Source: a virus. Taken from it: a stretch of 32,816 nt of DNA. Made by a program: the position numbers and the translations under genes. The first letter of the stretch is position 1. Every line of letters begins with the position of its first letter. Below the pieces are notes generated by a model. It saw only the letters and a program-made list of their open reading frames with translations, had not been told where the DNA came from and did not search any database. This document shows, piece by piece, positions 4,715 through 28,192 of the stretch. The stretch covers positions 1-32,816 of the IMG/VR virus record IMGVR_UViG_3300029922_000210; one strand, written 5' to 3'.

Positions 4715-4725
4715 TATGATAGAAT
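4715..4725 (+). promoter_or_regulatory. TATGAT/TAGAAT promoter-like box abutting the start at 4732
   Basis: Two overlapping -10-like hexamers, TATGAT (4715-4720) and TAGAAT (4720-4725), follow the sheath terminator directly. The second is exactly 6 nt from the ATG at 4732, the same spacing as at 6854, 14788 and 17399. No SD lies between, so the mRNA is predicted to be leaderless or nearly so. Confidence 0.45.
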
Positions 4726-4731
4726 TGATAT

Positions 4732-5502
4732 ATGGACCAGCTACAAGAACTTTGCATAGCTATTAAAGAAGAGCTGCAAAAGTCTATTACCAATAATCCT
4801 GAGAACAGCGATTACATATATAAAAAGGTTAGAGGTTGGATATCCCCTGCTGGCAAACATCATTTAATAGGTAGAGATGACCATTCGCCTTGGCTCGCTA
4901 ATCATATTAAGTTACCAGAAGGTGAAGACTTCTCTGAAGCATATCGCAAGGGATGGATTGGTATAGGCCACGAAGGCGAGCAATATGCTTCAGTTCATAA
5001 CGATGTATTAAATAACAGTAAGCATCCTGCTACTATAAAACTAAGACAGCTCATGAATGAACACTTTGATCCTAAGTTGCCCATAGATATAGGACCAAAT
5101 CATCACGATGAGGCTACGCAGCAGAAAATATGGAAGGCTCCTATGCCTGATCCACATAATTTTATGCAAACTGGTAAGGTTACACCTATTACTACACCTA
5201 AGTTAAAAAAGAATGACGAACTAGTAAAAAGAAAGTGGACGACTCCAGAGGCTCGTGCTATTAGGATACATGAGCAGAAAGTTGCTGATCGCAAGGTTGA
5301 GCACACTAATACTGGTCAGCGTGGTATAAAAGCCTATACTAGTTCTCCTCATGGTACAGCAGAAGAACAGGCCTACAGAGATTTCAGACCACCTGCTCCT
5401 ATTAAGCATTTTAAGGCTGGATCACCAGAAGTAAAAGCTCATGCTGAAAAATATAAACAGCCAGTTAAAATTGCTAAAAATGGACAGTGGAGCCTTGACT
5501 AA
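4732..5502 (+). CDS. Unknown 256-aa protein, probable accessory insertion between sheath and tube
   Basis: I do not recognise this protein with confidence. The N-terminal part (residues 1-30) is a short helix. Residues about 32-110 contain VRGWISPAGKHHLIGRDDHS, GEDFSEAYRKGWIGIGHEGEQYASVH and a helix ending in LMNEHF; this W/H/D-rich pattern recalls small phage domains of unknown function. From about residue 130 the protein is lysine- and proline-rich and likely disordered. It has no SD and starts 6 nt after a TAGAAT box. Its 3' end overlaps the following HNH gene, and the pair lies between the sheath terminator and the tube promoter, a place where sheath and tube are normally adjacent. The pair probably arrived together. 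A virion accessory or host-interaction role is possible but unsupported. Confidence 0.6.
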   Translation: MDQLQELCIAIKEELQKSITNNPENSDYIYKKVRGWISPAGKHHLIGRDDHSPWLANHIKLPEGEDFSEAYRKGWIGIGHEGEQYASVHNDVLNNSKHPATIKLRQLMNEHFDPKLPIDIGPNHHDEATQQKIWKAPMPDPHNFMQTGKVTPITTPKLKKNDELVKRKWTTPEARAIRIHEQKVADRKVEHTNTGQRGIKAYTSSPHGTAEEQAYRDFRPPAPIKHFKAGSPEVKAHAEKYKQPVKIAKNGQWSLD

Positions 5503-5932
5503 AACTTGTATTAGTTGCAGCACTGCAGAGACTGATAAATGGTACTCAGGACCTACTTGTCGTAGGTGTTATAGATATGCTAGAGATAGTAAGAGACGAG
5601 ACATCTGTAATCAAGAACGAAAAGCTTATCTTAAAGCTAATCCAGGCAAAAGAAAAGAATACGAGCAGCGACATCAAGTAGTTAATAGAGAAACATGGTT
5701 AGCGTCTCAAAAACATAGAGAAGCAAAACATAGGGCCAAGAAGCTTATGGCTACTCCTGAGTGGGTAGATAATGAGGCTTTAAAGCTTATTTATAACAAC
5801 TGTCCACCTGGTCATCACGTTGATCACATTATCCCTTTAAAGAACTCAATAGTGTCTGGGCTACATGTACCCTGGAATCTTCAGTATTTGCCTGCTCTTG
5901 AGAACATAGCCAAGTCTAATAAGTTAACCTAA
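5480..5932 (+). CDS. HNH homing-type endonuclease (first copy)
   Basis: The 150-aa protein has an N-terminal zinc-ribbon-like pair (CISC and CRRC about 15 residues apart), a basic helical middle (KRKEYEQRHQ to HRAKKLMATPEW), and a C-terminal HNH core with GHHVDHIIPL followed by GLHVPWNLQYLP and a final EN-x-x-K-x-NK. This is the usual layout of free-standing phage HNH nucleases that cut DNA and spread by homing. The ATG at 5480 is chosen because the zinc motif follows it closely; an in-frame ATG at 5441 would lengthen the protein by 13 residues. The start lies inside the 3' end of the preceding gene (23-nt overlap). The HNH region matches the second copy at 17399 and shares a 20-nt identical DNA run (5861-5880 with 17840-17859). 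Confidence 0.88.
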   Translation: MDSGALTKTCISCSTAETDKWYSGPTCRRCYRYARDSKRRDICNQERKAYLKANPGKRKEYEQRHQVVNRETWLASQKHREAKHRAKKLMATPEWVDNEALKLIYNNCPPGHHVDHIIPLKNSIVSGLHVPWNLQYLPALENIAKSNKLT

Positions 5933-5939
5933 GTTGTGA

Positions 5940-5947
5940 TATATTAT
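5940..5947 (+). promoter_or_regulatory. TATATTAT promoter-like box of the tube gene
   Basis: The AT-rich sequence TATATTAT lies just after the HNH stop and 72 nt before the tube ATG. A start about 7-12 nt downstream would put the 5' end of the mRNA at or next to the hairpin at 5954-5975. No clear -35 element is visible. Confidence 0.4.
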
Positions 5948-5953
5948 ATCTAA

Positions 5954-6013
5954 TTCGTAATAATTAGGTTACGAAGTTAAATTCAAGGTAGCTAGAACCG
6001 AACTAGCAAGGAT
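5954..6013 (+). promoter_or_regulatory. Structured leader of the tail tube mRNA
   Basis: The leader contains a perfect 7-bp stem-loop (TTCGTAA 5954-5960, 8-nt loop, TTACGAA 5969-5975) and a 5-bp stem-loop (GCTAG 5991-5995 with CTAGC 6003-6007). The second ends directly against the SD AAGGAT at 6008-6013. A 5'-terminal hairpin commonly stabilises abundant mRNAs, and the second could tune ribosome access. Both roles are inferred. Confidence 0.45.
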
Positions 6014-6019
6014 ATTCAA

Positions 6020-6595
6020 ATGGCAGGCAAATTACCAAGTTTTATCACAGGCGCCAACGCCAAAATTACCGCAGGCGGTGTTACGTTTGCATACGCAGCA
6101 GACGTTTCTTATAACGTCTCAGTTGACACAGTACCGATCGAGACAATGGGTCGTTACGAAGCGGTGTCAAACGAACCGGTTAACTACTCAGTAGCTGGCG
6201 AACTTTCAGTAGTTCGTTACACTGGTATCGCTAACAAGAACAACATGGCTGGAGCCGCAGTAAACGGTAACGGTCTTGGTAACGTAAATTACAAAACTGG
6301 TGGTAATGCATCAGATGAGATCAATCCAGGAAATATCCTTGTGTCTCAAACTTGGGATTTAAACGTGTATCAAAAAATTCAATCTGGTAACCCAGCAACG
6401 ACCTCACCTGCTGAGACCAATTCAGGAGCTCCTACAAGTGGTGCAGTAATCACCATCACTGATTGCCGTTTCAATCGTAAATCAGCTGGTATTAACAAGC
6501 GAGGTATCCTCGTTGATCGTTTATCATTCGTAGGAATTCTAGCATACGATGATTCATTCCAAGCAGGAACATCTGGAGACGTCGATCTTAGCTAA
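6020..6595 (+). CDS. Tail tube protein
   Basis: The 191-aa protein has the size and beta-rich pattern of a myovirus tail tube subunit, which stacks as hexameric rings inside the sheath. Key segments are FITGANAKITAGG near the N-terminus, GRYEAVSNEPVNYSVAGELSVVRY (about residues 43-68) and WDLNVYQK (about 112-119), followed by a DCRFNRKSAGINKRG strand pair. The first 70 residues align by eye with those of the next gene at 6854, which looks like a paralogue. The SD (AAGGAT) and structured leader precede it and a strong terminator follows it, so it is probably transcribed as a highly expressed single-gene unit. In most myoviruses the tube follows the sheath directly; here two accessory genes separate them. 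Confidence 0.85.
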   Translation: MAGKLPSFITGANAKITAGGVTFAYAADVSYNVSVDTVPIETMGRYEAVSNEPVNYSVAGELSVVRYTGIANKNNMAGAAVNGNGLGNVNYKTGGNASDEINPGNILVSQTWDLNVYQKIQSGNPATTSPAETNSGAPTSGAVITITDCRFNRKSAGINKRGILVDRLSFVGILAYDDSFQAGTSGDVDLS

Positions 6596-6618
6596 TCTCT
6601 AAATTCAGTACAAAGTCA

Positions 6619-6655
6619 AAAAGGGCTGGCAGAAATGCTGGCCCTTTTATTTAGA
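6619..6655 (+). terminator. Intrinsic terminator after the tube gene
   Basis: A 13-bp stem (6619-6631 with 6636-6648) closes a GAAA loop at 6632-6635; the A-rich and T-rich flanks make it a typical rho-independent terminator. It matches the sheath terminator in stem length and loop. Confidence 0.9.
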
Positions 6656-6818
6656 ATAAGTGTACTTCAGCAGTTTGGCCAGCTTCTGTTAATATATAAA
6701 CGCCAGCAATTATTCTCAAGCTTATTAACAGTAAAAGCACCTTTTGAATAGGTGTATCTCTAAGTGTCACTATCTCACCAAGTTGTAAATCAGTGACTTT
6801 CATGGTAATTTTTCTCAT
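6651..6818 (-). CDS. Doubtful small minus-strand ORF (55 aa)
   Basis: The only minus-strand reading frame that does not lie over a confident gene encodes 55 aa, with a second in-frame Met at residue 6. It starts MRKITMKVTDLQLGEIVTL, has a hydrophobic middle (VLLLLISLRIIAGVYIL) and ends in a polar strand, AGQTAEVHLF. The first and last parts read like real protein; the middle could be a membrane segment or the product of small frame errors, since another frame gives FTVNKLENN there. There is no clear SD. It is convergent with the tube terminator. It may be a small gene, a decayed remnant or chance. Confidence 0.3.
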   Translation of the reverse strand: MRKITMKVTDLQLGEIVTLRDTPIQKVLLLLISLRIIAGVYILTEAGQTAEVHLF

Positions 6819-6840
6819 ATTATTCTTAAGCCCTTATACC

Positions 6841-6847
6841 TTATAAT
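6841..6847 (+). promoter_or_regulatory. TTATAAT box abutting the start at 6854
   Basis: TATAAT (6842-6847) lies exactly 6 nt before the ATG at 6854, and there is no SD in between. Transcription from it would start at or next to the A of the ATG, giving a leaderless mRNA. No -35 element is visible. Confidence 0.5.
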
Positions 6848-6853
6848 TAACCC

Positions 6854-7465
6854 ATGGCCGGTGTAAGACCTTTTTTTGTAACAGGAGCAAATGCTAAGTT
6901 AAAGCTTAATGGCAAGACTATGGCGTTCCTAACTGACTTCCAATGTTCTGTGCAGATAGCACACCAAACTCCCCACGTGCTGGGCGTATACGAAGGTGTC
7001 TCTGTAGAACCTTTGTCCTACAATGTAAACGGCATGTTTAGCATCATCAGATATGTTCACAATGCCCATGAGAATATCGGTGGAGTTGCGCCTCCAGGTA
7101 TTGCTGCTAATGATGCAGGTAATGGAGTCGGTAACTGGGGCTCAGTATGGGGTGGCGGAGTTTTAGGTAACCTACCATCTACTCTTGGAAATCCTTTCGC
7201 AGGTGGTGCTGACGGTAGAGCTAACGAAGCTCTTGACCCAAGTACATACTCTCAAGGAACTACATTTGACATTGAAGTTTATCAGAAGAATCCAAATGGC
7301 GATCCACTTGGAGTTATGAAAGTTAGACAAGTTAGAATTACTAGAGCAGATTTTGCTCTCAGCAAACGAGGTCCTGGTCAAGACAAGTTTGAGTTCACTG
7401 CTCTATACGTAGACGGTGATGCTTATCAAGCTAGACCATCCGGTACAGGACAACAGAATAGTTAA
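6854..7465 (+). CDS. Tail tube-like paralogue (203 aa)
   Basis: The protein aligns with the tube protein along its N-terminal third: FFVTGANAK against FITGANAK, GVYEGVSVEPLSYNVNG against GRYEAVSNEPVNYSVAG, and FSIIRY against LSVVRY. The FDIEVYQKN segment matches WDLNVYQK. It differs in a glycine-rich loop at about residues 75-115. By analogy with T4, where gp48 and gp54 share the gp19 tube fold, it may form the first or last ring of the tube, or decorate it. Its start has no SD and follows a TATAAT box by 6 nt. The next gene begins 2 nt after its stop. Confidence 0.72.
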   Translation: MAGVRPFFVTGANAKLKLNGKTMAFLTDFQCSVQIAHQTPHVLGVYEGVSVEPLSYNVNGMFSIIRYVHNAHENIGGVAPPGIAANDAGNGVGNWGSVWGGGVLGNLPSTLGNPFAGGADGRANEALDPSTYSQGTTFDIEVYQKNPNGDPLGVMKVRQVRITRADFALSKRGPGQDKFEFTALYVDGDAYQARPSGTGQQNS

Positions 7466-7467
7466 TT

Positions 7468-8127
7468 ATGCCAAATACAGGTTTTGATAACAGCCCAGGC
7501 TTTGCAGAGAATTTAGTAAATAACGCCGCTAGTAACGTAGCTGGTATCTTCTCTCTTCGTCCTAATGCAAAATTTTTAAGTGGACCTAGAATCACTCTTA
7601 AAGTAAACGGTAAATTAGTTGGCTTCGCTTTCGGCATCAGTTGGACTATCAACACTACAGTGACTGAAATTAATACTATCGATGACTATCTTCCACATGA
7701 ACTTGCTCCTCAACGTGTAACTGTAGAGGGAACTATATCTGCACTTCACATTCCAGGAGTTAGTGCCTCAACTGAAGGATGGCAAGCAGACGTTCTATCA
7801 TTCTTATTCGCTCCATATATCTCTATTCAAGCTATTGATTCTGCAACGCAACAAGTTGTATTTGCTACAGATAAGGCAATGATTACTTCACGTACCGAAG
7901 ATTTAAGAGTAGACTCTCTCGCTAATGTAACTCTAAGATGGAGAGCCATTGGATTTATGGATGAGAAGCAACCTACTATTCCACCTGCTAATAACTACAA
8001 TAACACTGTGCAAGCTGCCGCAATTGCTAATAATGGTATAAGTAATGCGGGTCCGCTTCCCGCTAACAATTTAAACCCTCTTCCAACGAATTTAAGCAAT
8101 GTTAGTTCTGGCACTTTGGGTGCGTAG
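7468..8127 (+). CDS. Second tube-like / tube-initiator candidate (219 aa)
   Basis: Residues 30-165 are beta-rich and resemble a tail-tube fold: ITLKVNGKLVGFAFGISWTINTT, then VTVEGTISALHIPG, and a final strand pair ending TLRWRAIGF. The order of segments parallels the two preceding proteins, but identity is low. The C-terminal 50 residues are rich in Asn, Pro and Ala and likely disordered. It starts 2 nt after the stop of the 203-aa paralogue, so the two are co-translated. It may be a tube initiator, a tube cap or a neck-side ring. No enzyme motif is visible. Confidence 0.55.
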   Translation: MPNTGFDNSPGFAENLVNNAASNVAGIFSLRPNAKFLSGPRITLKVNGKLVGFAFGISWTINTTVTEINTIDDYLPHELAPQRVTVEGTISALHIPGVSASTEGWQADVLSFLFAPYISIQAIDSATQQVVFATDKAMITSRTEDLRVDSLANVTLRWRAIGFMDEKQPTIPPANNYNNTVQAAAIANNGISNAGPLPANNLNPLPTNLSNVSSGTLGA

Positions 8128-8133
8128 TATAAT
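8127..8133 (+). promoter_or_regulatory. TATAAT box before the chaperone-position genes
   Basis: TATAAT (8128-8133) touches the stop codon of the previous gene. The ATG at 8154 is 20 nt further on, with GAGG (8142-8145) as a plausible SD. This is the leadered form of the recurrent box. Confidence 0.4.
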
Positions 8134-8153
8134 GCTAGTACGAGGTTTAGTAC

Positions 8154-8555
8154 ATGGAATTACCAAATAATGAAGCAGTCTTCAGCGTTGACGTTGAAGG
8201 CGAAACCACATTCAAAAGATACGACGGTCAGTTCACAGTTCGCTGCGTTTTGAACATGGGTCAAAAGCACGCTATGGAGCTTGAAAAGACTAGACTTCTT
8301 GGGAACTATTCAAGTCCTACAGAAGGTCTAGCGGGTATTGCTGTTATCTTTGCAAATCTTAGAGCAAAAATAACAGATGGACCTGAATGGTGGAAACAAA
8401 GTGCCGGCGGTTCCAATATCAAAGATGAAAATATCCTAGTTGAACTCTACACTAATCTTCAAAGGACAGAGACAGAATGGCGACAGAAGGTAAGGGATCT
8501 AGCGAATCCACCAGTACCGGTGGAGAACAGCTCTTCAGCACCGCAGACGACATAA
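8154..8555 (+). CDS. Probable tail assembly chaperone, upstream partner
   Basis: The 133-aa protein has an N-terminal beta hairpin (FSVDVEGETTFKRYDGQFTVRCVL), then a helical part (MGQKHAMELEKTRLLG, LAGIAVIFANLRAKI) with TDGPEWWK, and a Pro/Ser-rich tail. This layout and its place between tube and tape measure fit the chaperone that coats the tape measure during tail assembly (lambda gpG-like role). Its last 79 nt are shared with the next gene in the -1 frame. Many phages make a gpG-T fusion by -1 slippage at such overlaps, but I found no clear X-XXY-YYZ heptamer here, so the second protein is probably started separately. Confidence 0.58.
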   Translation: MELPNNEAVFSVDVEGETTFKRYDGQFTVRCVLNMGQKHAMELEKTRLLGNYSSPTEGLAGIAVIFANLRAKITDGPEWWKQSAGGSNIKDENILVELYTNLQRTETEWRQKVRDLANPPVPVENSSSAPQTT

Positions 8556-8989
8556 GACGGATTGCTGCCAGAAACGCTAGAGCAGAATTAAACAACGACG
8601 AGCAGCTAACGCTTTTCTTAAAGAGTTGGTGGTCTAAAACATACAATAGACCACTCAAAGATCCTCTTTTACTATCATACACATTAGAAGATTTACTGTA
8701 CGAATTCTACGATAAAGTTGAACGAAGACTTGCTGAAGAAGAACGCAATGATCAGGGTGAGATTAACCAAGAGATTGCTAAAGAACAGGCTGACCTTGAT
8801 TGGGCTGAACAGATGGAGCAAGAAGACCTAGCTAACATGAAGGCTAAGGCCGCCAATCTAGAGACAGCTAAGGTAGAAGATCCTACGAAGGATCCCGACA
8901 ATATCAAATGGATGGAAGAGCAGATGAAACTCGCTAAGCAGCAGTTTGGTGAGACATTTGGCAACGACATTGAAGAAGACTTTGAATGA
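8477..8989 (+). CDS. Probable tail assembly chaperone, downstream partner
   Basis: The 170-aa protein starts inside the previous gene in the -1 frame, with AAGGA (8462-8466) about 10 nt upstream as a possible SD. The first 25 residues, which lie in the overlap, are Ser/Thr/Gly-rich. Residues 25-85 are helical with SWWSKTYNRPLKDPLLLSYT and LEDLLYEFYDKVERRL. The rest is a strongly acidic and Gln-rich coiled-coil-like helix (RRLAEEERN to DIEEDFE). The pairing with the upstream overlapping gene and the tape measure downstream suggests the second chaperone component. Its TGA overlaps the ATG of the next gene (ATGA). Confidence 0.55.
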   Translation: MATEGKGSSESTSTGGEQLFSTADDIRRIAARNARAELNNDEQLTLFLKSWWSKTYNRPLKDPLLLSYTLEDLLYEFYDKVERRLAEEERNDQGEINQEIAKEQADLDWAEQMEQEDLANMKAKAANLETAKVEDPTKDPDNIKWMEEQMKLAKQQFGETFGNDIEEDFE

Positions 8990-9276
8990 ATAAACTACCA
9001 GACAACCCATATTCTAAATTTCGATATGACAACAACTTTAACATTAAGTTCAGAGTTGAGAACGGCCACATTAGTATGTATGGGGTAGAGTGCCGCTCTT
9101 TTCAGGACAATATTAGAGATCAGATGTCTGAGGTACCCAGCACTTGGGTCAATAATGGCGCCACTTGGGTAGTCAACAATGTCTATAAATGCAATCAGAT
9201 AAACAAGGTTGACCAACCCGTGGTTAATGATAAGAACGCTTCGAAGTTAACTTTCTTTAAGCTTTTTAAGTTATAA
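8986..9276 (+). CDS. Unknown 96-aa protein
   Basis: The start is set by the ATGA overlap with the preceding stop, which implies translational coupling. The protein contains NPYSKFRYDNNFNIKFRVENG, a tryptophan pair in TWVNNGATWVVNN, and a basic hydrophobic C-terminus (KLTFFKLFKL). I recognise no family. The asparagine-rich, beta-like character would suit a small structural or assembly protein. The promoter-like box of the tape measure gene overlaps its last codons. Confidence 0.55.
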   Translation: MNKLPDNPYSKFRYDNNFNIKFRVENGHISMYGVECRSFQDNIRDQMSEVPSTWVNNGATWVVNNVYKCNQINKVDQPVVNDKNASKLTFFKLFKL

Positions 9277-9277
9277 T
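9271..9277 (+). promoter_or_regulatory. TTATAAT box before the tape measure gene
   Basis: TATAAT (9272-9277) overlaps the stop codon of the 96-aa gene and is 8 nt from the ATG at 9286; no SD lies between. The 12-nt sequence TAAGTTATAATA (9267-9278) recurs identically at 14771-14782. Confidence 0.5.
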
Positions 9278-9285
9278 AGCCTTAT

Positions 9286-12003
9286 ATGGCTAAGGATCCC
9301 AATAATAGCAACAATCAGAATAATCCTAATGAAATTGGGACTAGTCTGTCCGACCGTATTGCCGACATAGGTCGCGCTGCATATAATGTTCCTGCCGAAG
9401 AGCGTGAGCTTAGAAGAAAAGCTAAGGTTGCTAACAAGGGTATCAGCATCTACGATAGTATTCCTGTAGAGTCACGCGGCTATGGCCCGATTGAAAAATT
9501 ACATAAAGATAACCTCCAAACCATATCTAGGACAGAACCTAGGATCAGAGTTAGTACGGAAGCCCGCATTGACCGTTTCACTCAACAGGCCATAAACGAA
9601 GTTGGACGCACATTCAACGAGACATCTATAAATGGTCAGGTTAGAGATATTGCGTCTACTCAATCAGGCCAGCTTGCATCAGCAGCTCACCTTAACGCTC
9701 CTTATACAGATCTGCAAAGTAGAAGTCAAACAATCCAAGATAGCATAAATTCTCTTCGTGGACGAGCGACTACAGCCGCCGGAAGTATTTTTTCTAAAAG
9801 AGGTGTAAACACTAGTGCGCAGAATGAACTTAGAGATGTAGATGCTCAACTTCAAAATAAATTAAAAGAATTAGCACCTATAAATGCCGCAATGAGAATT
9901 CAAAAGCAGCAAGGGCTAGATCCTGAGTCACAGATGTCAAGACTTGCACTTAAGAGTCATGAAGCTCAAGGAATGGATGGGCAAGAAGCCAAAGAATTAG
10001 TTAACGCAATGAAGGAACTTAAGGAGGCAGCGCGCGCAGGAGCCACAAACCTAGATGATTTGCAGAAGAAGGCATTAGAAGCAGCAGAAAATTTAGACAA
10101 AGCTCAAAAAGCTGGCACTACTAATAAAGGATTTAGCAACGCAACGATGACTGGTTTAGCTGTCGCTAGTACTGCATTTAGTGCGTTTAGTGGTGCAGCA
10201 ATGCAAGTAGGCGTAAATCAACATTTAGCGCAAGTTAATAACGCTACAGGTTATGCAAATTTTGAGAATCAAAAGTATCAAACTTATAAAGCAGCTGTAG
10301 GTGGAGACATAGCATCATTGATGCAGCTATCGCATTTTGCAGGAGCCGATAAATTTGGAACAGGTTTAGGGGATAGTGCGGAAAATGCTTTGTTAGCCCA
10401 AACAGGCGGTGGAGCTGTAAACCTAATTTCTGGTATTAGTACAGCAATGAGCGGTAAAGTAGGCGAAGGTTTATCTAACGTTATTGGCGGGGGAACAAAT
10501 GCCTATATTGCTACCTCCGATGTTTTAAGGCACGTCACACAAGAACAATCAGATGTAGCGGGTAGGAATGCAGCTATTGAATTATCCCGAGTAGTTAATG
10601 AAACAAACGCAGAGCAGATTCAAGGTTTTAGAGATTTTTCAGTAGGAGCTGGAGTAGCTGCTATAGGCATGGGTGGAGCTGGTGAAGGTTTCTTAAAGAA
10701 CTCTATCACGCGTGGAAACCTAGATAAAATGACTGGAGCTAGAATTAGTCCAGAGCAATACAATCAGATGGCTCAAATGGGCGTTGCCAACATGGGCTCA
10801 ATGTTCAATCAAGATCAAATTTTTGCTGCACGTGGAGCGGAATCGCGTGGACTCGGAACAATGCAAGAGAACATGCAGCGCATGTCTTCACTTGCGTCTG
10901 CCGGATCTAATAATCCTCAAGCATCATTAGCTGGAGTAATGGAAGTTGCTCTTACAAAAGGATTAGACTCATCTAAGGCGCTCAACGCCGTAGTTGACCA
11001 TACTGCTCAGATGGCAGCGTCGTCTGCTGGTCGCTCTTTAGGTATCGATACGACTGCTGCTGCTGCAACATTGCTCACTACGGGTATTACAAAAGATACG
11101 CCTAATAAGGAAGCAACATTAGAAAGAAACGCCTCTTTACAGGATGCGGCACGCGGCATTGGTACTAACATTAGCACAAGTTACGCAGGCATGGTTTCAA
11201 TCGCAAGAGCCCAACGCACCCTTGGTGTAGGTGGAGCACAAGCAGTAGCGGCAGAAACAATTGATACAGAAACTTTGATGTCCATTAGTCAGATGGGGAC
11301 TGACAAGGAAAAAAGGGGAGCAATGAGAAACTTAGGAGTAAACTCTCCTAATAAAGACATTAGTGGCACATTAACGCAATACTTAAACGATAGACAGATG
11401 AAGATGATAGAAGCCGCTGGAACAGGTCTCGCTATTGGAAACGCTGGTAACTTATTAAAGAGCGTTAACAGCACCAAATCATTCGCCGAACTCACTGACG
11501 AAGAACAAACAAACCTTGCAGATATAGGAAGATTGTCGCCGACTAGAGCCACTGGAGAACAACAGTACAACATTCTTAAGGGCGTTAAGGCACAAATTGA
11601 TCCCAACAGCGCAACGGGTAATAAAGCATTGACCATGACAGATGATAAATCTATGCTTTCTGGTCTAGACAAGATGCGCACAGAAGGATTCGGAAGATTG
11701 TCGACTAGCGCAAATACTGCAGCAGATGCTTTAGATAAAGTCAGTGGCGCTAGTGGAGCTATTAAAAGATTAGAAGTTGCCTTTGATCAATTGGCGAAAC
11801 AAATACCTAACATTGAGAAAAGTGCTGGAGATGCCGCTGGTCATGCCGCCGCCCAAGATAAAAATAGAGGTGGTATAGATTTAGGAAATTTAAACGTTAC
11901 GATCGGCAGATTAGATAGCGTTTTAAATAAAGTTTTAGATAGAGCAAACGTACCTAGAGGCACTGTCGATAACAGAGAAAAAACAAAGGCACCTGGACCT
12001 TAA
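9286..12003 (+). CDS. Tape measure protein
   Basis: The 905-aa protein is Ala/Gly/Gln/Ser-rich and mostly helical, and it follows the chaperone pair, as expected for the protein that sets tail length. Residues 1-20 are Asn-rich and disordered. Long helical or coiled-coil stretches cover about 90-290 (NELRDVDAQLQNKLKEL, LVNAMKELKEAARAG). Hydrophobic Ala/Gly segments at about 285-310 (TMTGLAVASTAFSAFSGAAM) and 450-470 (VGAGVAAIGMGGAGEG) resemble the membrane-active parts of tape measures. If 0.15 nm per residue holds, the tail would be about 135 nm long; this is an estimate. No lytic transglycosylase or peptidase motif is visible. The start has no SD and lies 8 nt after a TATAAT box. Confidence 0.82.
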   Translation: MAKDPNNSNNQNNPNEIGTSLSDRIADIGRAAYNVPAEERELRRKAKVANKGISIYDSIPVESRGYGPIEKLHKDNLQTISRTEPRIRVSTEARIDRFTQQAINEVGRTFNETSINGQVRDIASTQSGQLASAAHLNAPYTDLQSRSQTIQDSINSLRGRATTAAGSIFSKRGVNTSAQNELRDVDAQLQNKLKELAPINAAMRIQKQQGLDPESQMSRLALKSHEAQGMDGQEAKELVNAMKELKEAARAGATNLDDLQKKALEAAENLDKAQKAGTTNKGFSNATMTGLAVASTAFSAFSGAAMQVGVNQHLAQVNNATGYANFENQKYQTYKAAVGGDIASLMQLSHFAGADKFGTGLGDSAENALLAQTGGGAVNLISGISTAMSGKVGEGLSNVIGGGTNAYIATSDVLRHVTQEQSDVAGRNAAIELSRVVNETNAEQIQGFRDFSVGAGVAAIGMGGAGEGFLKNSITRGNLDKMTGARISPEQYNQMAQMGVANMGSMFNQDQIFAARGAESRGLGTMQENMQRMSSLASAGSNNPQASLAGVMEVALTKGLDSSKALNAVVDHTAQMAASSAGRSLGIDTTAAAATLLTTGITKDTPNKEATLERNASLQDAARGIGTNISTSYAGMVSIARAQRTLGVGGAQAVAAETIDTETLMSISQMGTDKEKRGAMRNLGVNSPNKDISGTLTQYLNDRQMKMIEAAGTGLAIGNAGNLLKSVNSTKSFAELTDEEQTNLADIGRLSPTRATGEQQYNILKGVKAQIDPNSATGNKALTMTDDKSMLSGLDKMRTEGFGRLSTSANTAADALDKVSGASGAIKRLEVAFDQLAKQIPNIEKSAGDAAGHAAAQDKNRGGIDLGNLNVTIGRLDSVLNKVLDRANVPRGTVDNREKTKAPGP

Positions 12004-12006
12004 TCT

Positions 12007-13761
12007 ATGGCGCTAAATCAAACAAATAATTTTAGGATTGTAACTCCGCATGCGGCTATAATCATATGGAACTACGACAATAGACTTGGTTCAGATCCAA
12101 CGAATGCTGGGACTATCAATGATATCAATGAAACTATATTGAGCACATTGTCTCTTCAATCTATTCAAACATCTAAAAGTAAGAGTTCACCAGCCGGTTC
12201 ATTCACTGTAAACTTAGCACCTACCAGAGATTGGGTTTCCCAAATTACTGCAGGTAGTTGGTGTGCTATCTTAATGTCTAATAACCCAATCTCTCCAACT
12301 CAACTAGCTAAAGCTGATCCTAAGTTTGTTAAAATGATAGGCAAGATTGAAAGCGTTAGAGCAGATATTCAAATTGATGAAGAAGGCGCAAGACATACCA
12401 CTTACACAATGACGGGAACTGATTGGGGTTATATATTTAATAATGTTCTATACATTGACAATCTAATCTCAGCTGCTAACACTCCTACCAATCAAGGTAA
12501 TGCAATAGCTATTGCATTACAGAAACAACTGTTTGGCGATGGCAACACTCCTCAAAGTTTTAAAGTAGTCGATAATTTAGTAGCTTTATTAGGTATATTT
12601 GGAAGTTCTTCTCCAGAGTTAGATAAAGCTAGTGGTGCCATCAATCGAATAAATAAATCTATATACGATTTCCTTATCCCTACCAAGATGGCACAATATT
12701 TTAACTTTGTAGATGGAGATGGAAATATAAATCCCTCTACCAAACTCTCTGACCTATTAACTCTTCAAGTAGGTAAGTTAGTTGCTCAGGATCAGTATGC
12801 AGATACTAATGAGGCTTACGGCTTCATAGATCCATTCTCACTTCAAGGAACTAATACATTTTGGCAGATCATGATGGATAATAGCAATCCAGCTCTGAAT
12901 GAAATGTACAACGAGATTGACTGGGAAACTAATAACAGTGGTACAGTAGGGCCCTCATTAACTATATTCAATAGAATAAAACCTTTCTCTTACCGCACGG
13001 ACCTGCAGAGTTCTGCTGCTGCTAATAAGCTTAAATCTCCTTTCACTTTATTAAAGACCCACGTTATAGATAACGTTAAAGTGACTTCTGTTAACATTGG
13101 AACTAACTGGAGAGACAAATATAACTTTGTTGAAATTAGACCTTTGTTTCAAGACTTCGAGATATTGAACGGTTGGACAGCACAGAAATCACAGGGATCA
13201 GACACAGCAGCGTTCAATAGAGAAGGCTTCAGACCCATGATCGTGGGAACAAAACAATTTCCTGTCGATATCTCTACGACTTCATCAGCGTCCTCTGCAC
13301 AGTACAACGCTGACATGTTAACTAGCTGGGTAGAGCTTTTAAAAGAATGGTTCTTTGATACGCATAGGCTTTTAAATGGAACCCTCGTAATGAGAGGCAC
13401 TACTGAGTACATTGGCGTAGGGAATAACATTTTATTTGAAGCAGGTTTAATTAATCCCACAATGAACTTGAACCAGGGCGCAAACACTAATACTAACACT
13501 AACTACGTATTAGCGCACGTAGAAAATGTAAACCATACTTTTACTGTGAGCGGCGATGGTGGACGAACCTATATAACTACAATTCAGTTTGTAAGAGGCT
13601 TAGTAGTCAACAAGGCAAATGGTAACTATACACTAGTAGGAAGTGGTTCATTAGATGAACTTGCATCCGATCTACAGAATCAAAAATATAAAAACACAGT
13701 TAACACGGTTAGCACATCGGATCCTAGCGACCCAGATCCTAACAAGGTACGTGGACAATGA
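12007..13761 (+). CDS. Baseplate hub protein (gp27 / gpD-like)
   Basis: The 584-aa protein has a hub-like N-terminal region, with SFTVNLAPTRDWVSQITAGSWCAILMS (about residues 65-92) and a following MIGKIESVRADIQIDEEG strand pair, then YTMTGTDWGYIF. This pattern is typical of late-control-D/gp27-type hubs, in which the early domains copy the tube fold and form the trimeric ring that holds the spike. The C-terminal region (about 440-550) includes LVMRGTTEYIGVGNNILF and VENVNHTF, which also occur in hubs. It starts 3 nt after the tape measure stop, and its TGA overlaps the ATG of the spike gene by four bases. The assignment rests on segment order and context. Confidence 0.72.
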   Translation: MALNQTNNFRIVTPHAAIIIWNYDNRLGSDPTNAGTINDINETILSTLSLQSIQTSKSKSSPAGSFTVNLAPTRDWVSQITAGSWCAILMSNNPISPTQLAKADPKFVKMIGKIESVRADIQIDEEGARHTTYTMTGTDWGYIFNNVLYIDNLISAANTPTNQGNAIAIALQKQLFGDGNTPQSFKVVDNLVALLGIFGSSSPELDKASGAINRINKSIYDFLIPTKMAQYFNFVDGDGNINPSTKLSDLLTLQVGKLVAQDQYADTNEAYGFIDPFSLQGTNTFWQIMMDNSNPALNEMYNEIDWETNNSGTVGPSLTIFNRIKPFSYRTDLQSSAAANKLKSPFTLLKTHVIDNVKVTSVNIGTNWRDKYNFVEIRPLFQDFEILNGWTAQKSQGSDTAAFNREGFRPMIVGTKQFPVDISTTSSASSAQYNADMLTSWVELLKEWFFDTHRLLNGTLVMRGTTEYIGVGNNILFEAGLINPTMNLNQGANTNTNTNYVLAHVENVNHTFTVSGDGGRTYITTIQFVRGLVVNKANGNYTLVGSGSLDELASDLQNQKYKNTVNTVSTSDPSDPDPNKVRGQ

Positions 13762-14759
13762 GCGATAGTATAGTTAAAGATAGCTCAATTTGGACTGATC
13801 CAAGCAATACTGCAACCTTAAATAAGTTGGACGGTTTGATTCGTATTGGTATTGTCAAAAGCGCATTCAATGACGCTGATACCGGCGAACTTAGATATCT
13901 AGTAGAGATTCAAAGTAACGCCAAGAAGATCAATATGAACTGTCGCCTTATGAGGCGTTTTGGTGGAGTTTATAACTACGAAGATTACATCTATCAAGGA
14001 TATAAGACTACTGATGCTCCAGATCCTGTAACCTCCTTTGAGGCTAAAGCTGGAGATGCAGTATTAGTTGGTCAATTGAATGGTCAAGGAAGAGAAGGAG
14101 TTATATTAGGTGGTTTAACACACGCCGCTCGTCAAACATCTATTCAAGCATCCGATGGGCCTCAATATGATTCAGAGTTTAATGGTATTCACACCAACAT
14201 CAATAACGCCGGCGAATGGACGCTAACCTTTAAAGCCCTACCTACAAACATCAGCGTACTGAGCAGCACCCCTTCTAGTCGTATACCGGCGCCTCAATAC
14301 AACACCACCGTAGGTAGTTCGTACATGAAATTCGATAAGACTGGTGGCTTCATAGTGAGCGACAATGCTACTAGCGATCCACAGTTTTTACACATCGATA
14401 AGGCCGCAGGAACTGTGACTGTGAATTCTGGCCAAATATCCTTGGTAATGACCAAGAGTAGTCAAGCTGTTATTTTAACCAGTAAAGCGCTCACTATTAA
14501 TTCGTCTGACTCCATAGATGAAAACACTACAAATTACCACCTGATTGCTAGCGCTACGGCAAAATTCGACTCTCCAAAGATTGCTATTGGACATGCAGAC
14601 ATAGAATTACTAGATCAGATAACTCAACTGATAGATGCCATAGGAAAAATACTACCTATATCTCCAGTAGGTCCCTGCACTGCCCTAAACACAGTGGAAG
14701 ACTGGCCGGATGTCGAAAAGATCAAGGCAAAGATTAATCAGATCAAGGGCGGCCTGTAA
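13758..14759 (+). CDS. Baseplate spike protein with N-terminal OB fold (gpV/gp5-like)
   Basis: Residues about 25-125 fit the OB-fold of phage spikes: LIRIGIVKSAFNDADTGEL, YLVEIQ, then a GDAVLVGQLNGQGREGVILGGL segment (about 98-119). A beta-rich C-terminal part (about 165-280) contains YMKFDKTGGFIVSD and short Ser/Thr strands that suit a triple-stranded beta-helix needle. The last 50 residues are helical (LLDQITQLIDAIGKIL). There is no lysozyme domain as in T4 gp5, so this is a gpV-type spike. The ATG overlaps the hub stop (ATGA), as expected for subunits of one complex. Confidence 0.78.
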   Translation: MSDSIVKDSSIWTDPSNTATLNKLDGLIRIGIVKSAFNDADTGELRYLVEIQSNAKKINMNCRLMRRFGGVYNYEDYIYQGYKTTDAPDPVTSFEAKAGDAVLVGQLNGQGREGVILGGLTHAARQTSIQASDGPQYDSEFNGIHTNINNAGEWTLTFKALPTNISVLSSTPSSRIPAPQYNTTVGSSYMKFDKTGGFIVSDNATSDPQFLHIDKAAGTVTVNSGQISLVMTKSSQAVILTSKALTINSSDSIDENTTNYHLIASATAKFDSPKIAIGHADIELLDQITQLIDAIGKILPISPVGPCTALNTVEDWPDVEKIKAKINQIKGGL

Positions 14760-14774
14760 TTAAGTCCTAATAAG

Positions 14775-14781
14775 TTATAAT
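14775..14781 (+). promoter_or_regulatory. TTATAAT box abutting the start at 14788
   Basis: TATAAT (14776-14781) lies 6 nt from the ATG, with no SD, predicting a leaderless mRNA. The surrounding 12 nt match the box at 9267-9278. A short inverted repeat (TAAGTT 14771-14776 with AACTTA 14783-14788) flanks it. Confidence 0.5.
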
Positions 14782-14787
14782 AAACTT

Positions 14788-15777
14788 ATGTCAATCTTCT
14801 CTTCGATATCAGATGCGTTAAGCTCACCGAACCCTAAGCAAACGGCGCAAAGTCCATCAAACAGCTTAATAACTGGCAGCGATGATTTAGGAACTAAGAC
14901 GTATGAAGTCAATCCCGCAAATTGGTTTTCATCTAAACCTTATGGATTTAGGGTCTATAAGAGAAACGGTAAAAAATTTACTATGTTTCTTCCTATCAAT
15001 CCAAGTAATATTAACATTGTTACAAATTTTGCCACCAATGTAATTCCTACTTTATATGGAACGGTTGAAGAGCACTCTGACATTAGGTATTACGATATCA
15101 CAATTGAAGGCACCACGGGTATGGCGCCTAAGTTTGTATCTCCCATAAATTCTGATGATGCAGATGTAGCTTATCAAGCTCTTAAACAACCAGGTAGAGC
15201 TCAATATCCTATTAGAGCAAACATAGCAGGTGGATTCTTCTCTAACACAATCGGTCAAGTAACAAACATTTTAAACCAAGCGCAAAAGGCTATTGGCGGT
15301 GTGTCACAACTATTCGGCGGAACTGGACCAAAACCACTAGAAACAGCTTTATATACAGACCAAACCGGATATATGGCGTTTCATAATCTTTATAGATTCT
15401 TAAAACAGTATAAGCGCGATGCAGCAGGTCTACAACTAAATAGCAATCAACCTAACAATACTCCATTCACACACCATCCTTTAACTTTCTTTAACTACAA
15501 AGATCAAAATGAATATGATGTAGCTATTAGAAGCTTTACACTAAGAAAGTCAGCTGAGAATCCAATGTTATATTACTACTCTATAACTATGAGAGGGTAT
15601 AACCTTAGAACATCGGGTAGCTTAACAGCCTCTGAAGATTTACAGGCGCGCATGGCGGATCTCGGGCTCGACGGAGTTAAATCGTCCTCTTTACTCTCTA
15701 GCATCAAGAGTGTATCTAGCAGCGCAAAAGCGGTCGTTGGATCTGTACTGAACGGTTCCAGTTTACTAGGTAGATAA
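14788..15777 (+). CDS. Baseplate hub-associated / Dit-like protein (329 aa)
   Basis: Residues about 52-115 contain YGFRVYKRNGKKFTMFLP, INPSNINIVTNFATNVIPTL, YGTVEEHSDIRYYDITIEG and TTGMAPKF. This series recurs in phage baseplate proteins that bind the tube end. The central part has an Ala/Gly/Gln helix (IGQVTNILNQAQKAIGGVSQLFGG). Residues about 190-275 form a second beta domain ending in YYYSITMRGYNLRT. The C-terminus is Ser-rich and may be disordered. It lies between the spike and the LysM-gp25 fusion, the usual place for a hub connector. Four bases (TAATATGG context) separate it from the next start. Confidence 0.6.
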   Translation: MSIFSSISDALSSPNPKQTAQSPSNSLITGSDDLGTKTYEVNPANWFSSKPYGFRVYKRNGKKFTMFLPINPSNINIVTNFATNVIPTLYGTVEEHSDIRYYDITIEGTTGMAPKFVSPINSDDADVAYQALKQPGRAQYPIRANIAGGFFSNTIGQVTNILNQAQKAIGGVSQLFGGTGPKPLETALYTDQTGYMAFHNLYRFLKQYKRDAAGLQLNSNQPNNTPFTHHPLTFFNYKDQNEYDVAIRSFTLRKSAENPMLYYYSITMRGYNLRTSGSLTASEDLQARMADLGLDGVKSSSLLSSIKSVSSSAKAVVGSVLNGSSLLGR

Positions 15778-15778
15778 T

Positions 15779-17374
15779 ATGGCAACTGCAGCACAAGCTT
15801 ATCAGAGTATTGCAAACGTTAATTTGTGGTTTAAACTACAATCCGGCGACCAACTACTTTTGACAGATGTGCCTGCTATTATTGCGCTTAGATGGCCTTA
15901 TTTTAGAGATACCTGGAATCAACTACTTCCTAACTTAATAAACCAGATAACTAGTTATACCTTCCCGGATTTATTTAAGCAGCAGCTAGCAGATTTCACA
16001 AACTTCATCAACATCGAAAGAAATAACTCAGCAGTCCTCAATCCGTTAGCGGACTTAAGCACGCTGTACAGATTTTACACAGTATTCGACAATATCACTA
16101 TTAAGTCTATTAACTTAAGTAATCAAGAAAACTTATTGTTAACTAATACAATCAACACTGTACAAAACTATACTAAGAACGATTTCTTACAACTTCAAAA
16201 TAACATTATTAGTTACAGAGATACTCAAGCAGATGTTTTAGGGTTAACTGATCCTACTTACAATAGCACTATGAATAGAAGTGCAGCTGCAGCTCAAAAG
16301 AAGCCAGCAATCTCAGATATACAATACTTATTAACATTAGAGAGTTCAATACAATCCATTGACTTCATACTAGCAAACCTATTTGCGGTGGATACCGCAG
16401 TAGATCCATTTGCCCTTGCAATCGCTAACGCTAATAACCCAGACGTAGCTATTGGTAGCTATTCATCAGGACAATTGGTTAGATTCAACTATGGCGACAC
16501 GTTAGAGTCTCTTGCTTATAGATACCTTGGTGATCCAAACAGATGGTTAGATATAGCTATCGCTAACGGTCTACAACCTCCCTACATCGATGAAGTGGGG
16601 CAAGCTGTGCCGCTAGAAGCTAACGGCTCTGGTCTTCAAATTAACATCGCGGGCACAGATAGTAACGGAAATGATAATAGTGAAAAGTTCTATGTAAACC
16701 AAACTATCTTCCTACAATCTACCTCATCGCCCTTTCCTGATCAACGCAGCATTACAAACATTCATCAAATACCCGTATCTGGTGACTTAGTTATAACCTT
16801 AAATGGCAGCAGTAATCTTAGCATATACACTATTGCAGATAATGCATATGTTAGGGTTTATGCGCCTCACACTGTTAACAGTAGCTTATTCATATTGATC
16901 CCCTCTACTCAACCTCTTCCTAACAACCGCCAAGAGACCATTCCTTGGTTTTTGGCAAAAAGCCCAGAAGACGAAAAGAGAGCTGGAATCGACCTTCTCC
17001 TCTCTGAGACAGATGACCTAGTTTTTACTTCTAACCACGATTTGAGTTTAAGCTATGGGCTTCAAAACGACGTTCAAGCGATTCGCCTAAAGATTGTCAC
17101 AGAGCTCGGTGAGTTAATAAGGCACCAAGGATTTGGTTTAGTAAACGTAATAGGTAGTAAAAACAATGATATAGATGGAGTGAAGACCTCTATCATCAGC
17201 TCGTTGACCAACCAGATCAGCCAGGATTCAAGGTTCGACCGTATTGAAACCTTGAATGTTGACTACGTGGCCAATCTTAATGCTGCTCCTGCGTTTGTTG
17301 TAAATATGGAAGTAAGGTTAGCTGGAGGCAGTAATCAAGTGATCCCTATTAGTTTTGATGTCAACTACACATAA
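15779..17374 (+). CDS. Baseplate wedge fusion: LysM (gp53-like) plus gp25-like domain
   Basis: The 531-aa protein appears to fuse two wedge components. The first 200 residues are helical. At about 232-272 is a LysM-like segment, LVRFNYGDTLESLAYRYLG followed by DPNRWLDIAIANGL, as in T4 gp53-type wedge proteins. Residues about 405-531 resemble gp25/gpW: NHDLSLSYGLQNDVQAIRLK, then a helix ELGELIRHQGFG, a helix with SSLTNQISQDSRFDRIETL and a closing MEVRLAGGSNQVIPISFDV hairpin. SRFDRI stands where gp25 proteins usually have an EPR motif. gp25 and gp53 meet in the T4 wedge, so the fusion makes structural sense. The gene starts 1 nt after the preceding stop. Confidence 0.72.
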   Translation: MATAAQAYQSIANVNLWFKLQSGDQLLLTDVPAIIALRWPYFRDTWNQLLPNLINQITSYTFPDLFKQQLADFTNFINIERNNSAVLNPLADLSTLYRFYTVFDNITIKSINLSNQENLLLTNTINTVQNYTKNDFLQLQNNIISYRDTQADVLGLTDPTYNSTMNRSAAAAQKKPAISDIQYLLTLESSIQSIDFILANLFAVDTAVDPFALAIANANNPDVAIGSYSSGQLVRFNYGDTLESLAYRYLGDPNRWLDIAIANGLQPPYIDEVGQAVPLEANGSGLQINIAGTDSNGNDNSEKFYVNQTIFLQSTSSPFPDQRSITNIHQIPVSGDLVITLNGSSNLSIYTIADNAYVRVYAPHTVNSSLFILIPSTQPLPNNRQETIPWFLAKSPEDEKRAGIDLLLSETDDLVFTSNHDLSLSYGLQNDVQAIRLKIVTELGELIRHQGFGLVNVIGSKNNDIDGVKTSIISSLTNQISQDSRFDRIETLNVDYVANLNAAPAFVVNMEVRLAGGSNQVIPISFDVNYT

Positions 17375-17386
17375 CGTAGTTCATAG

Positions 17387-17392
17387 TAGAAT
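17387..17392 (+). promoter_or_regulatory. TAGAAT box abutting the HNH start at 17399
   Basis: TAGAAT lies exactly 6 nt before the ATG at 17399 and no SD is visible. It repeats both sequence and spacing of the box at 4720-4725 before the other accessory unit. Confidence 0.4.
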
Positions 17393-17398
17393 AAAAGT

Positions 17399-17911
17399 AT
17401 GGAAAAGTCTTGCTTAAATTGTGGTGTTATATTCGAAAAACATTACAATGCTAAATTCTGTTCTAGCAAGTGTAAGGATGCTAAGTGGCAATCCGAACAC
17501 TGGGACCAAGTGCTAAAAGCAGGCGAAAAATATAGAAAAAGTGATAAAGGTCAAAAGAATATCTTAAGTCGTAGAGAAGATGACCTGGAGCGCTTTAAAG
17601 AATGGAAAAAAGCTAATCCAAACAACGACAAAGAATATTACGAAACTCACAAGAATACAGAAAAGTTTAAAAAGAGACATAATTTTCATGAGGCCAATAG
17701 AAGGGCCGCAAAGCTAAATGCAACCCCTAAATGGTTAACTACAGAACAAAAACAACAGATTAAAAATATTTACAATGATTGTCCTACTGGTTTTCACGTA
17801 GATCACATAGTTCCACTTCAAGGTCAAGAGGTGAAAGGTCTACATGTACCCTGGAATCTACAAGCGCTTCCTGAGAAGTTAAATCTAATAAAAGGCAATA
17901 AGGTCATATAA
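17399..17911 (+). CDS. HNH homing-type endonuclease (second copy)
   Basis: The 170-aa protein begins with a zinc-finger-like motif (CLNC ... FCSSKC), followed by a highly basic helical region (about 35-105, with KKANPNNDKEYYETHKN) and an ANRRAAKLNATPKWL helix. The HNH core is TGFHVDHIVPL then GLHVPWNLQALPEKLNLIKGNK. Only the C-terminal third is close to the first copy; the N-terminal parts differ, as in modular homing nucleases with swapped DNA-binding parts. It sits between two baseplate wedge genes, and its TAA shares one base with the ATG of the giant baseplate J gene. No intron or split gene surrounds it, so it is a free-standing endonuclease. Confidence 0.9.
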   Translation: MEKSCLNCGVIFEKHYNAKFCSSKCKDAKWQSEHWDQVLKAGEKYRKSDKGQKNILSRREDDLERFKEWKKANPNNDKEYYETHKNTEKFKKRHNFHEANRRAAKLNATPKWLTTEQKQQIKNIYNDCPTGFHVDHIVPLQGQEVKGLHVPWNLQALPEKLNLIKGNKVI

Positions 17912-20900
17912 TGGCGTCTCAAATAAATATTCAGAGTTACAATCAGTTTCTCGGAAGTATGATTAGGTCAATCATAGCTAATACGCCTCTGAATGATATC
18001 AACCAAGGTTCCGTACTTCTCACTATTCTTGAAGCGGCGGCATCCAACGATTTCGAAAACAACACCGCAATCTTAAGCCTGTTAAACCTTCTTGATATTC
18101 AAACTGTTTCTGACAGCGACCTTGACAACAGAGCAGCTGATTACGGCCTAACTCGTCTTGCAGCAATGCAGGCGTCAGGTAACGTTAGTTTTTTCAATAA
18201 TAGTATTACCAAACAAAGCACCAGTCTATACGTTATTAAACCTGCCCCGATCGCCGGACAGACAGTTATTTACGTAAACAATACTACGGGGTGGGCTAAC
18301 AGCGGAACGCTCTACGTCGGCAGGGGGACAGCAAACTTTGAAGGTCCTATAGCTTATAGCTCAATCACAACCTTTGCAACCTACTCTCAGGTTAATCTAT
18401 CTTCCGCTTTGCAGAATAACCACTTAATCTCTGACAGCGTAGTTAATGCTCAAGGCCAACCAGACAGACTAATCGCAGCAGGTACCACTATCAGTATCCC
18501 TGCCAACAATCAAACTCCTGAGATTGACTACATTACACTAAGAGATGCAGTTCTTCCAGCAGGAGAAACAGTAGTTAGTAACGTAGCAGTAATAGCTCTA
18601 ATCGCTGGTTCAATCGGCAATGCCCCTATCAACACTATCACCCAGTTCCAAACCGCTCCTTTTACAGGAGCAGCAGTATCTAATACGTCTGCTTTGACTG
18701 GCGGTACAGACGTTGAAACAGACCAAGACCTAAGAGACAGAATTCAGTCTTACACCAACACGCTAGCAAGAGGTACAGAGGCAGCAATCCTAGCTGCTGT
18801 TATCAACGTATCTGATTCTAGCGATAACAACACTGTAGTTTCAGCGGTTATGACTGAACCACCAAGTATCGGTCAACCATCCATTTTATATATCGACAAT
18901 GGCTCAGGATTTCAACCTTCGTATGCGGGACAATCAGTCGACACGTTGTTGACAAATGCTACAGGTAAAGAACAGTTCTTACAACTAGCGAATTACCCAG
19001 TAACTAGACCTCAAGTAGTAAACACTGGAATAGGTCCATTCACCTTAATCGACGGGTCCTTCCTCGGCGTCTCTGTAGACGGCATAGAAGAGATCGTATA
19101 TTTCCATTCAACAGATTTCGTTAATATTTCTGCAGCTCAGGTTGCTGAAATCGTAGTCGCTATCAATAATCAAGCAAAGTTATTTAGCGCTAGATTAACA
19201 AACAATTCAGCGAACATCTTAATATACCCAGATGCATTCAATGCAGAGACAATACAAGTAACAGCAGAACTTACTACAGATGACCCATCACTGTACGCAA
19301 ACTCATTACTTCAATTCCCTACATCTCAATTTTCATTCATTGAATTGTTTCAAAACAATACTAGACTTAGAGAGCGTACCATATCCGCTCAATTAGAGAC
19401 TGCACCATTTGGATCATGGAACGTAAGTGCTCCAGGAGATCTTACAATCTCTGTGGACAACACTCCTCAACAAGACAGAACCTTTAGCTTAAATCTTTTC
19501 CCTGGAGCATCTAGCTTCACTACATTAACGCTCAATGAATGGGTTGCGGCATTCAACAACCAGTTCGCAGGATTGACAGCTACGGCTACAGCCGCACAAA
19601 CAATGCAGTTAAGTTCAAATCAAAGTGGAGCTAACTCGTCATTAAACGTAGCAGGCGGAACATTGTTAGCAAGTTTATTCCCTACTCAACCAACTACCTC
19701 AGTTGGTCAAAGTAGTGGTTTTATCTTAAACAGACAGACAGGAAACTTGGAGATCTTAACTACTATTAAACCCGGTGACAACATCACTGCGGGAATCGTA
19801 GATGCAAGAGGCTTCGTTAATTCAACTGTAACAACAAGCGGAACATACGATGTTTCTACAGATTCTTTTGGTCGTGCAGCTCAATTAGTTGTAGTCGCTG
19901 ACTCTACTTTTTGTACTCAGCGCGCTGAAAACATTCCAATTGGATCTACTATTACGATTAGTAATCCTAGCGGCAACGTAATGAGAATCATGTCAAGTAC
20001 CTTGACTGCTTTTCCTTTCTTAATGCCTGGTGATTTCATATACATTACACAAAGAACCTCAGCATGGTTGAGTTCTAACAACACCGGTTTATTTAAGGTT
20101 ATCGATAAAGGTTTCCACACAACAGCAGGCACAGATACATACGTTGACGTGCTTAATGCTGGTAACTTAGCAACTCCTAGTATTACTCCTCAAACTGTAA
20201 CTGTAGTAGATCCAGCAGATATACAATCATTTACAACCGATGGATACCCACAAGTATGGCTCGGTACATTCACCACGAACCCACCGATTGCTACTTTAAC
20301 TAATATCGTAGATTCATTGAATAATAACCTCATCAATGTAGTTGCTTCTATATATCAATCTAATTCAGTCAAGTTGACTTCAACTACTGAAAATGGAGGA
20401 TCTATAGCGATACCTGTAGTTATGGGTACCTCCGCTGTTGCCCTATTCACATCTACATCGACTGCTCAATTTGGTAACCCACCACTCATTGCAGCAATAG
20501 TATCTAGCAAAAGTTTATTAACGCACTTTAAGATTGATCCACCAACCAATAAAAATACTTGGTTGAACAGACAAGTATTTGATGACTCAAAGGGATCTCT
20601 CACTGCGAACGCTATTCCTAGCGCACCTCCTTACTCAGATCCTTATAGTGAGACACTACAATCTACCGGTGAACTTAATACTACTCACGTTGATTACAGC
20701 AGCATCATCTCTTTCACTGATGGTAACAACAGGAAGCAATTAAGAAGTATTGCTGCCTTCTTACCTAGTGATAGCGTAGGTACTCAAGAAGCTTTAGCAA
20801 GAACTAGTCTTGACAATATTACAGGCGATCAGTTTGAGATTGTTAGACCATTGCAACTCTCTGCATCTGATTCAGTTGCCGTAGTAATAGACCAAAATCC

Positions 20901-28174: not shown

Positions 28175-28192
28175 TTAAGTTAAGGAGACAAC

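Follow-up and report, generated by a model that had tools for sequence, protein, structure and literature searches.

Late promoters of bacteriophage T4 consist of TATAAATA with no -35 element, and are read by gp55, a sigma factor with region-2 homology. In the Thermus phage phiYS40, most middle and late mRNAs are reported to be leaderless (Sevostyanova et al. 2007, as given in the review PMC3594737). Similarly, in Deinococcus-Thermus a -10 motif is found roughly 6-7 bp ahead of the open reading frame (ORF), too short a distance harms expression, and about a third of the genes of D. radiodurans have such a "-10 motif adjacent to ORF", of the form TANNNT (PMC12340547). Here, a comparable arrangement is described for a 32.8-kb stretch of viral DNA (the window; IMG/VR record IMGVR_UViG_3300029922_000210, A+T 58.5%), a fragment of a contractile-tailed phage with its tail module, in which TATAAT-like hexamers stand directly before start codons that lack a Shine-Dalgarno (SD) sequence. 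An earlier note on this stretch had proposed that -10 boxes abutting the ATG give leaderless mRNAs, and that boxes further off give SD-led ones. Comparison across the lineage strongly supports this proposal at the level of sequence: the lineage very probably uses -10-only promoters, whose close boxes would produce leaderless mRNAs and whose distant boxes would produce SD-led mRNAs.

By scanning with the C-terminus of the tail sheath, 34 IMG/VR loci were found, with contigs of 146-177 kb among them. The comparison set consisted of the window and seven related contigs that were read whole; six of these measure 146-177 kb and the seventh 37 kb. Like phiYS40, the lineage has a large phage genome and a -10-like box (TANNNT in phiYS40) 6 nucleotides (nt) before ATGs. 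On the other hand, no sheath similarity to phiYS40 was found by tblastn, the box here is a strict TATAAT, often with a preceding G, and the phiYS40 mRNAs are reported to be leaderless, whereas the present lineage is known from sequence alone. The phiYS40-type programme also involves a shift of the host initiation factors IF2/IF3 on infection; an IF3_C match was found in 0/6 phage contigs here. As in Deinococcus-Thermus, where a -10-like hexamer stands 6-7 nt from the start, a second class of starts has a GGAG-type ribosome-binding site and no -35 element is needed, the lineage has a box at 6-7 nt, SD-less boxed starts beside an SD-led class, and no -35 motif. The pattern there is cellular and genome-wide, whereas here the box is TATAAT and concerns roughly 5-9% of the phage's called genes. 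What is described is a known mechanism, -10-adjacent leaderless expression, in a new phage lineage. The earlier note had called a regular use of leaderless mRNAs unusual, which holds for phages generally, but phiYS40 is already described as a precedent in the review PMC3594737. No paper on leaderless promoters in this lineage was found in the open-licence literature, a weak negative given that the searches mostly required all terms.

Spacing between the -10-like box and the start codon

Five plus-strand genes of the window start without an SD directly after a box, all as the earlier note had described. TAGAAT (4720-4725), preceded immediately by a terminator-like hairpin and T-run, lies 6 nt before the ATG of a predicted leaderless gene at 4732-5502 (256 amino acids (aa), no PHROG match). 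TATAAT (6842-6847) lies 6 nt before the predicted leaderless gene 6854-7465, whose 203-aa product resembles a paralogue of that of gene 6020 and may, from its position, be tail-tube-like. TATAAT (9272-9277) ends 8 nt before 9286-12003, a predicted near-leaderless gene for a 905-aa protein with no family match, and TATAAT (14776-14781) ends 6 nt before 14788-15777, a predicted leaderless gene for a 329-aa tail tube initiator-like protein (PF23980). Finally, TAGAAT (17387-17392) stands 6 nt before 17399-17911, a predicted leaderless gene for a 170-aa HNH/endonuclease-VII-like protein, which is not structural. The SD-led class, on the same strand, comprises TATAAT at 1771-1776, 34 nt before the ATG of the tail sheath gene 1811-4651 (SD AGGAGG, 1799-1804); TATAAT at 8128-8133, 20 nt before the ATG of gene 8154-8555 (SD-like GAGG, 8142-8145); and TATAAT at 28169-28174, 18 nt before the TTG of gene 28193-32428 (SD AAGGAG, 28182-28187). 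Gene 6020, which the earlier note had placed in this class, was not confirmed as a member: AAGGA is present, but no TATAAT, TAGAAT or TACAAT lies within 45 nt of its start. In total, TA[TG]AAT occurs 6-8 nt before the ATG at 5/21 gene starts of the window versus 1/960 other ATGs (Fisher P 1.6e-8, for a motif picked after the sites had been seen).

The same spacing is found throughout the comparison set. With k denoting the nt between the hexamer end and the start codon, and with ATG-ORFs of at least 60 codons counted, TATAAT shows a sharp peak at k=6, where 66 sites (2 of them from the window itself) compare with a mean of 5.65 per position at k=12-59. The counts at k=0-5 are 6, 1, 2, 2, 2 and 1, and those at k=7-11 are 12, 12, 11, 8 and 1; TAGAAT (16) and TACAAT (14) are secondary hexamers at k=6 in the genomes. 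Rearranged hexamers of like composition (TAATAT, TTATAA) are flat, with no peak at k=6. When all hexamers at all distances were ranked with no preset motif, the top places went to AAGGAG (the SD, k=5) and GTATAA/TATAAT (k=7/6). In the six large contigs, TA[TGC]AAT lies exactly 6 nt from the in-frame ATG in 16/201, 16/231, 13/193, 12/226, 8/150 and 11/219 called genes, against an average background of 0.6 to 1.7 at distances of 12-40. A held-out set, for which 70 of 99 loci were kept and none had been used in motif discovery, gave 14 GTATAAT sites at k=6 versus 1.71, and 9, 7 and 10 sites at k=7, 8 and 10, with one site at k=0-5 and none at k=13-15.

Among control phages, phiYS40 served as the positive control (TANNNT at k=6, 34 versus a mean of 16.2), and TATAAT had no peak at k=6 in T4 (1, mean 1.54), SPO1 (2), Mx1 (0) or P23-45 (0). 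The likeness to T4 late promoters drawn in the earlier note is not borne out by this result: a -10-only promoter, predicted here, is common to both, and the lineage has a protein with a sigma-region-2 domain as a putative counterpart of gp55, but T4 lacks the k=6 peak. Myxococcus phage Mx1 (OR576727) is the sole named phage record matched by the sheath in tblastn (30% identity over 50%), but it has no TATAAT-N6-ATG whatsoever, and its GC content is 56%; tblastn of the sheath and the 14788 protein against named phages returned nothing beyond Mx1 and weak Listeria-phage matches.

The distances fall into two groups. GTATAAT is absent at 0-5 nt from called starts, occurs at 6-11 nt before 58 starts without and 1 with an SD, is again absent at 12-15 nt, and at 16-73 nt is accompanied by an SD in 64/84 cases. 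For any TATAAT, one site in all falls at 0-5 nt, and the numbers without and with an SD are 80 and 2 at 6-11 nt, 0 and 4 at 12-15 nt, 25 and 76 at 16-40 nt, and 24 and 15 at 41-74 nt. This bimodal spacing is as expected of a -10 box whose mRNA either is leaderless or has a leader that can accommodate an SD. In addition, the two classes have a common consensus, T at -15, R at -14 and G at -13 (G in 72% of leaderless-type and 65% of SD-led boxes). The absence of a -35 element noted earlier was borne out by motif search, since the best TTGACA-like matches in both classes are no better than in shuffled upstream sequences.

The choice of start codon is also biased. At TATAAT-N6, ATG is found 66 times versus 5.65, GTG 4 times versus 1.60, and TTG 3 times versus 2.31. 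Immediately ahead of the ATG, a pyrimidine is found at 65/82 boxed starts versus 332/582 SD-led starts, as expected of an initiator.

The mechanism we propose is that a single class of promoter, T-R-G-TATAAT (spanning -15 to -7) with no -35, would be used genome-wide in the lineage. With 6 nt (in some cases 7-11) between the box and the ATG, transcription would start (+1) on the ATG or a few bases from it; the mRNA would be leaderless, and the ribosome would have to initiate on a 5'-terminal AUG. Where the box ends at least 16 nt away, the leader would be long enough for an SD and would usually carry one.

Conservation and displacement of the box among relatives

By comparing the orthologues of the window genes, the behavior of the box during divergence may be followed. 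Rows with identical upstream regions were counted once, as distinct upstream sequences, and each set except that of 28193 has one row from a contig of the same phage as the window, nearly identical to it. For 14788, the box lies at exactly 6 nt in 8/9 distinct upstream sequences, with a linker identity of 0.38; in the ninth (G004), the box has moved to 20 nt and an SD is present. Among the 21 distinct upstream sequences of 6854, 8 are boxed at 6-8 nt without an SD, 1 has a box at 25 nt and an SD, 11 have an SD without a box, and 1 has neither, so that an SD is present in 12/13 of those without a close box. The box of 9286 is found at 7-8 nt in 6/10 distinct upstream sequences. In the SD-led class, the orthologues of 8154 have a box at 15-28 nt plus an SD in 20/20 distinct upstream sequences, and those of 1811 have a box at 33-34 nt plus an SD in 4/5, the fifth having an SD alone. 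Three relatives of 28193 have a box at 19-21 nt, an SD and a GTG start; in G003, the box is at 6 nt and the start is ATG, the "SD" flagged there being a GGAG upstream of the box. Other gene families also change between leaderless-type and SD-led starts among relatives. This implies that one gene may switch between leaderless and SD-led expression through a shift of the box.

The boxed starts are not confined to structural genes, as the earlier note had supposed. In the window, 17399 is HNH/endonuclease-VII-like, and the boxed starts of relatives include genes apparently of replication type, whose products we take from their sequences to be a protein resembling the DNA polymerase III alpha subunit and nucleotide-kinase-like proteins. 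Alongside SD-led mRNAs, leaderless ones would serve conserved genes of structure and, it appears, of replication in a lineage present in many metagenomes. In general, leaderless translation in phages becomes testable by comparative means, and start calling in such genomes may be improved.

Weighing the leaderless interpretation

Several points weigh against the above interpretation. The promoter activity of the box, the position of +1 and leaderless translation are what we infer from these patterns, the gene caller used was simple, and the P values are too small because the related genomes are not independent. The lack of an SD at boxed starts is partly forced, because a box that ends 6-8 nt upstream of the ATG fills the SD position. 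Starts that lack an SD are not remarkable in themselves, since many genes inside operons show neither signal, and 20/84 distant GTATAAT boxes come without a detected SD. The held-out loci, with 1 site, do not reproduce the k=6 peak that TA[GC]AAT has in the genomes (30); the peak of contig G005 is weak (TATAAT at k=6 is 4, with a maximum of 4 elsewhere); and G directly precedes the hexamer in only 3/8 window boxes, versus 72% in the pooled leaderless set.

The alternative that survives best is that the boxes are promoters whose transcripts start elsewhere, or that read-through supplies most of the mRNA, so that leaderless translation would be minor. In its favor, 63/82 boxed starts come after a same-strand gene, often within 40 nt, and the operon-internal genes that have neither signal must be translated by coupling or otherwise. 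However, the exact 6-nt spacing is kept among relatives despite diverged linkers, boxes are almost absent at 0-5 nt, where +1 would lie inside the gene, and ATG is preferred at boxed starts. Moreover, a terminator-like hairpin with a T-run ends just before the box at 11/82 boxed starts, versus 0.9 in shuffled sequences, and would block read-through. On this evidence, we consider the alternative improbable. It is still harder to regard the box as a translational or other signal, such as an A/T-rich ribosome standby element, with no promoter function. The box does occupy the SD site and replace the SD, but the same extended box also stands 15-40 nt upstream beside an SD, it comes after terminators and fits the -10 consensus, and conservation at 15-34 nt as well would be unexplained for a translation signal; this explanation is thus very unlikely. 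Chance TATAAT from A+T-rich intergenic sequence, which the A+T content of the window might suggest, is refuted by the spacing spectrum, by the flat like-composition hexamers, by the contrast between gene starts and other ATGs in the window, and by the A+T-rich T4 and SPO1, which show no peak.

Candidate recognition factors, host and neighboring genes

Under the preferred interpretation of -10-only promoters, the recogniser is most likely the RNA polymerase of the host together with a host factor of the sigma-70 type, to which we give somewhat better than an even chance. A phage RNA polymerase cannot be deduced from the boxes alone, and the suggestion in the earlier note of promoters for a phage-encoded polymerase found no backing: the multisubunit beta subunit (PF00562) was matched in 0/10 phage records, which may be incomplete, versus 14/14 controls, and the single-subunit enzyme (PF00940) in 0/6 contigs, in a search that was equally silent in its controls and is therefore uninformative.

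It is possible, although we would not favor it, that recognition is helped by a phage protein with a sigma-like region 2. A conserved protein of 500-640 aa (L153-L172), with homologues in 6/6 large contigs, has a C-terminal sigma-28-like region 2; in G003 its gene adjoins an adaptor-like gene in what appears from its neighbors to be a head-neck cluster. Over about 100 residues, the six-row profile of this protein aligns with FliA/WhiG sigma factors at E 1.7e-12, and the match persists at 2.5e-6 after the Pfam-positive members L153 and L161 are dropped; as single members, 2/17 match PF04542. The model of the region resembles sigma domain 2 (9wsm_F; Z 6.8, root-mean-square deviation 2.0 over 68 residues). 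Its VIA Z scores reach 7.2 with sigma factors in most top rows, which speaks for the likeness, but values under 8 are weak, and its best Foldseek E, 0.23, is also weak. The protein may be considered an unproven candidate recogniser of the box.

A conceivable counterpart of sigma region 4 is a conserved Cys-rich helix-turn-helix protein of 119-137 aa (L173-L252), found at no fewer than 80 viral loci, in which C13, C25, C53 and C65 are invariant in 30 aligned rows. It has no named-phage match at E 0.01, and its Pfam matches to sigma region 4 are below the cut-off only. In the PDB profile search, sigma factors reached E 0.27 or worse, and the best match (2.4e-5) was a chain named CAP REPEAT; the AlphaFold model is of low confidence (predicted local distance difference test, pLDDT, 67). 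The genes of both proteins lie outside the window. Conceivably, the lineage's own split sigma reads T-R-G-TATAAT, with region 2 of the 500-640 aa protein for -10 recognition and melting and perhaps the Cys-rich protein replacing region 4, in which case promoter position alone would set leaderless versus SD-led expression. We regard this as unlikely, and the data are accounted for equally well by sigma-70 of the host acting at -10-only promoters.

With respect to the host, three contigs with a sheath relative come from metagenome-assembled genomes (MAGs) that were assigned to Bacteroidota. In the Cytophagales MAG, 11/18 GTATAATN6ATG matches are on the phage contig (146,658 of about 4.0 million bases), and because just 7 fall elsewhere, the signal is not a feature of the binned genome; the bins may be wrong. 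The hosts of the lineage are suggested to translate leaderless mRNAs well.

Some further features of the tail module were observed. Annotation of the window proteins assigns 17911-25653 to a baseplate J-like gene. An Ice_binding-like domain (PF11999) is present in three tail proteins (1811-4651, 17911-25653 and 28193-32428), and these domains are mutually 59-68% identical; in several other genomes the sheath homologues have a length of only 734-740 aa, a difference of about 200 aa, which fits the domain being an insertion. Two HNH/endonuclease-VII-like genes lie inside the tail operon (5441-5932 and 17399-17911), the second with its own boxed start, and they are possibly homing endonucleases. 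Contig G003 carries a tRNA-like gene with a CTA anticodon, called tRNA-Pyl (L049, 13386-13460), which is a possible amber suppressor; TAG is the rarest stop in this contig, ending 22/201 called genes.

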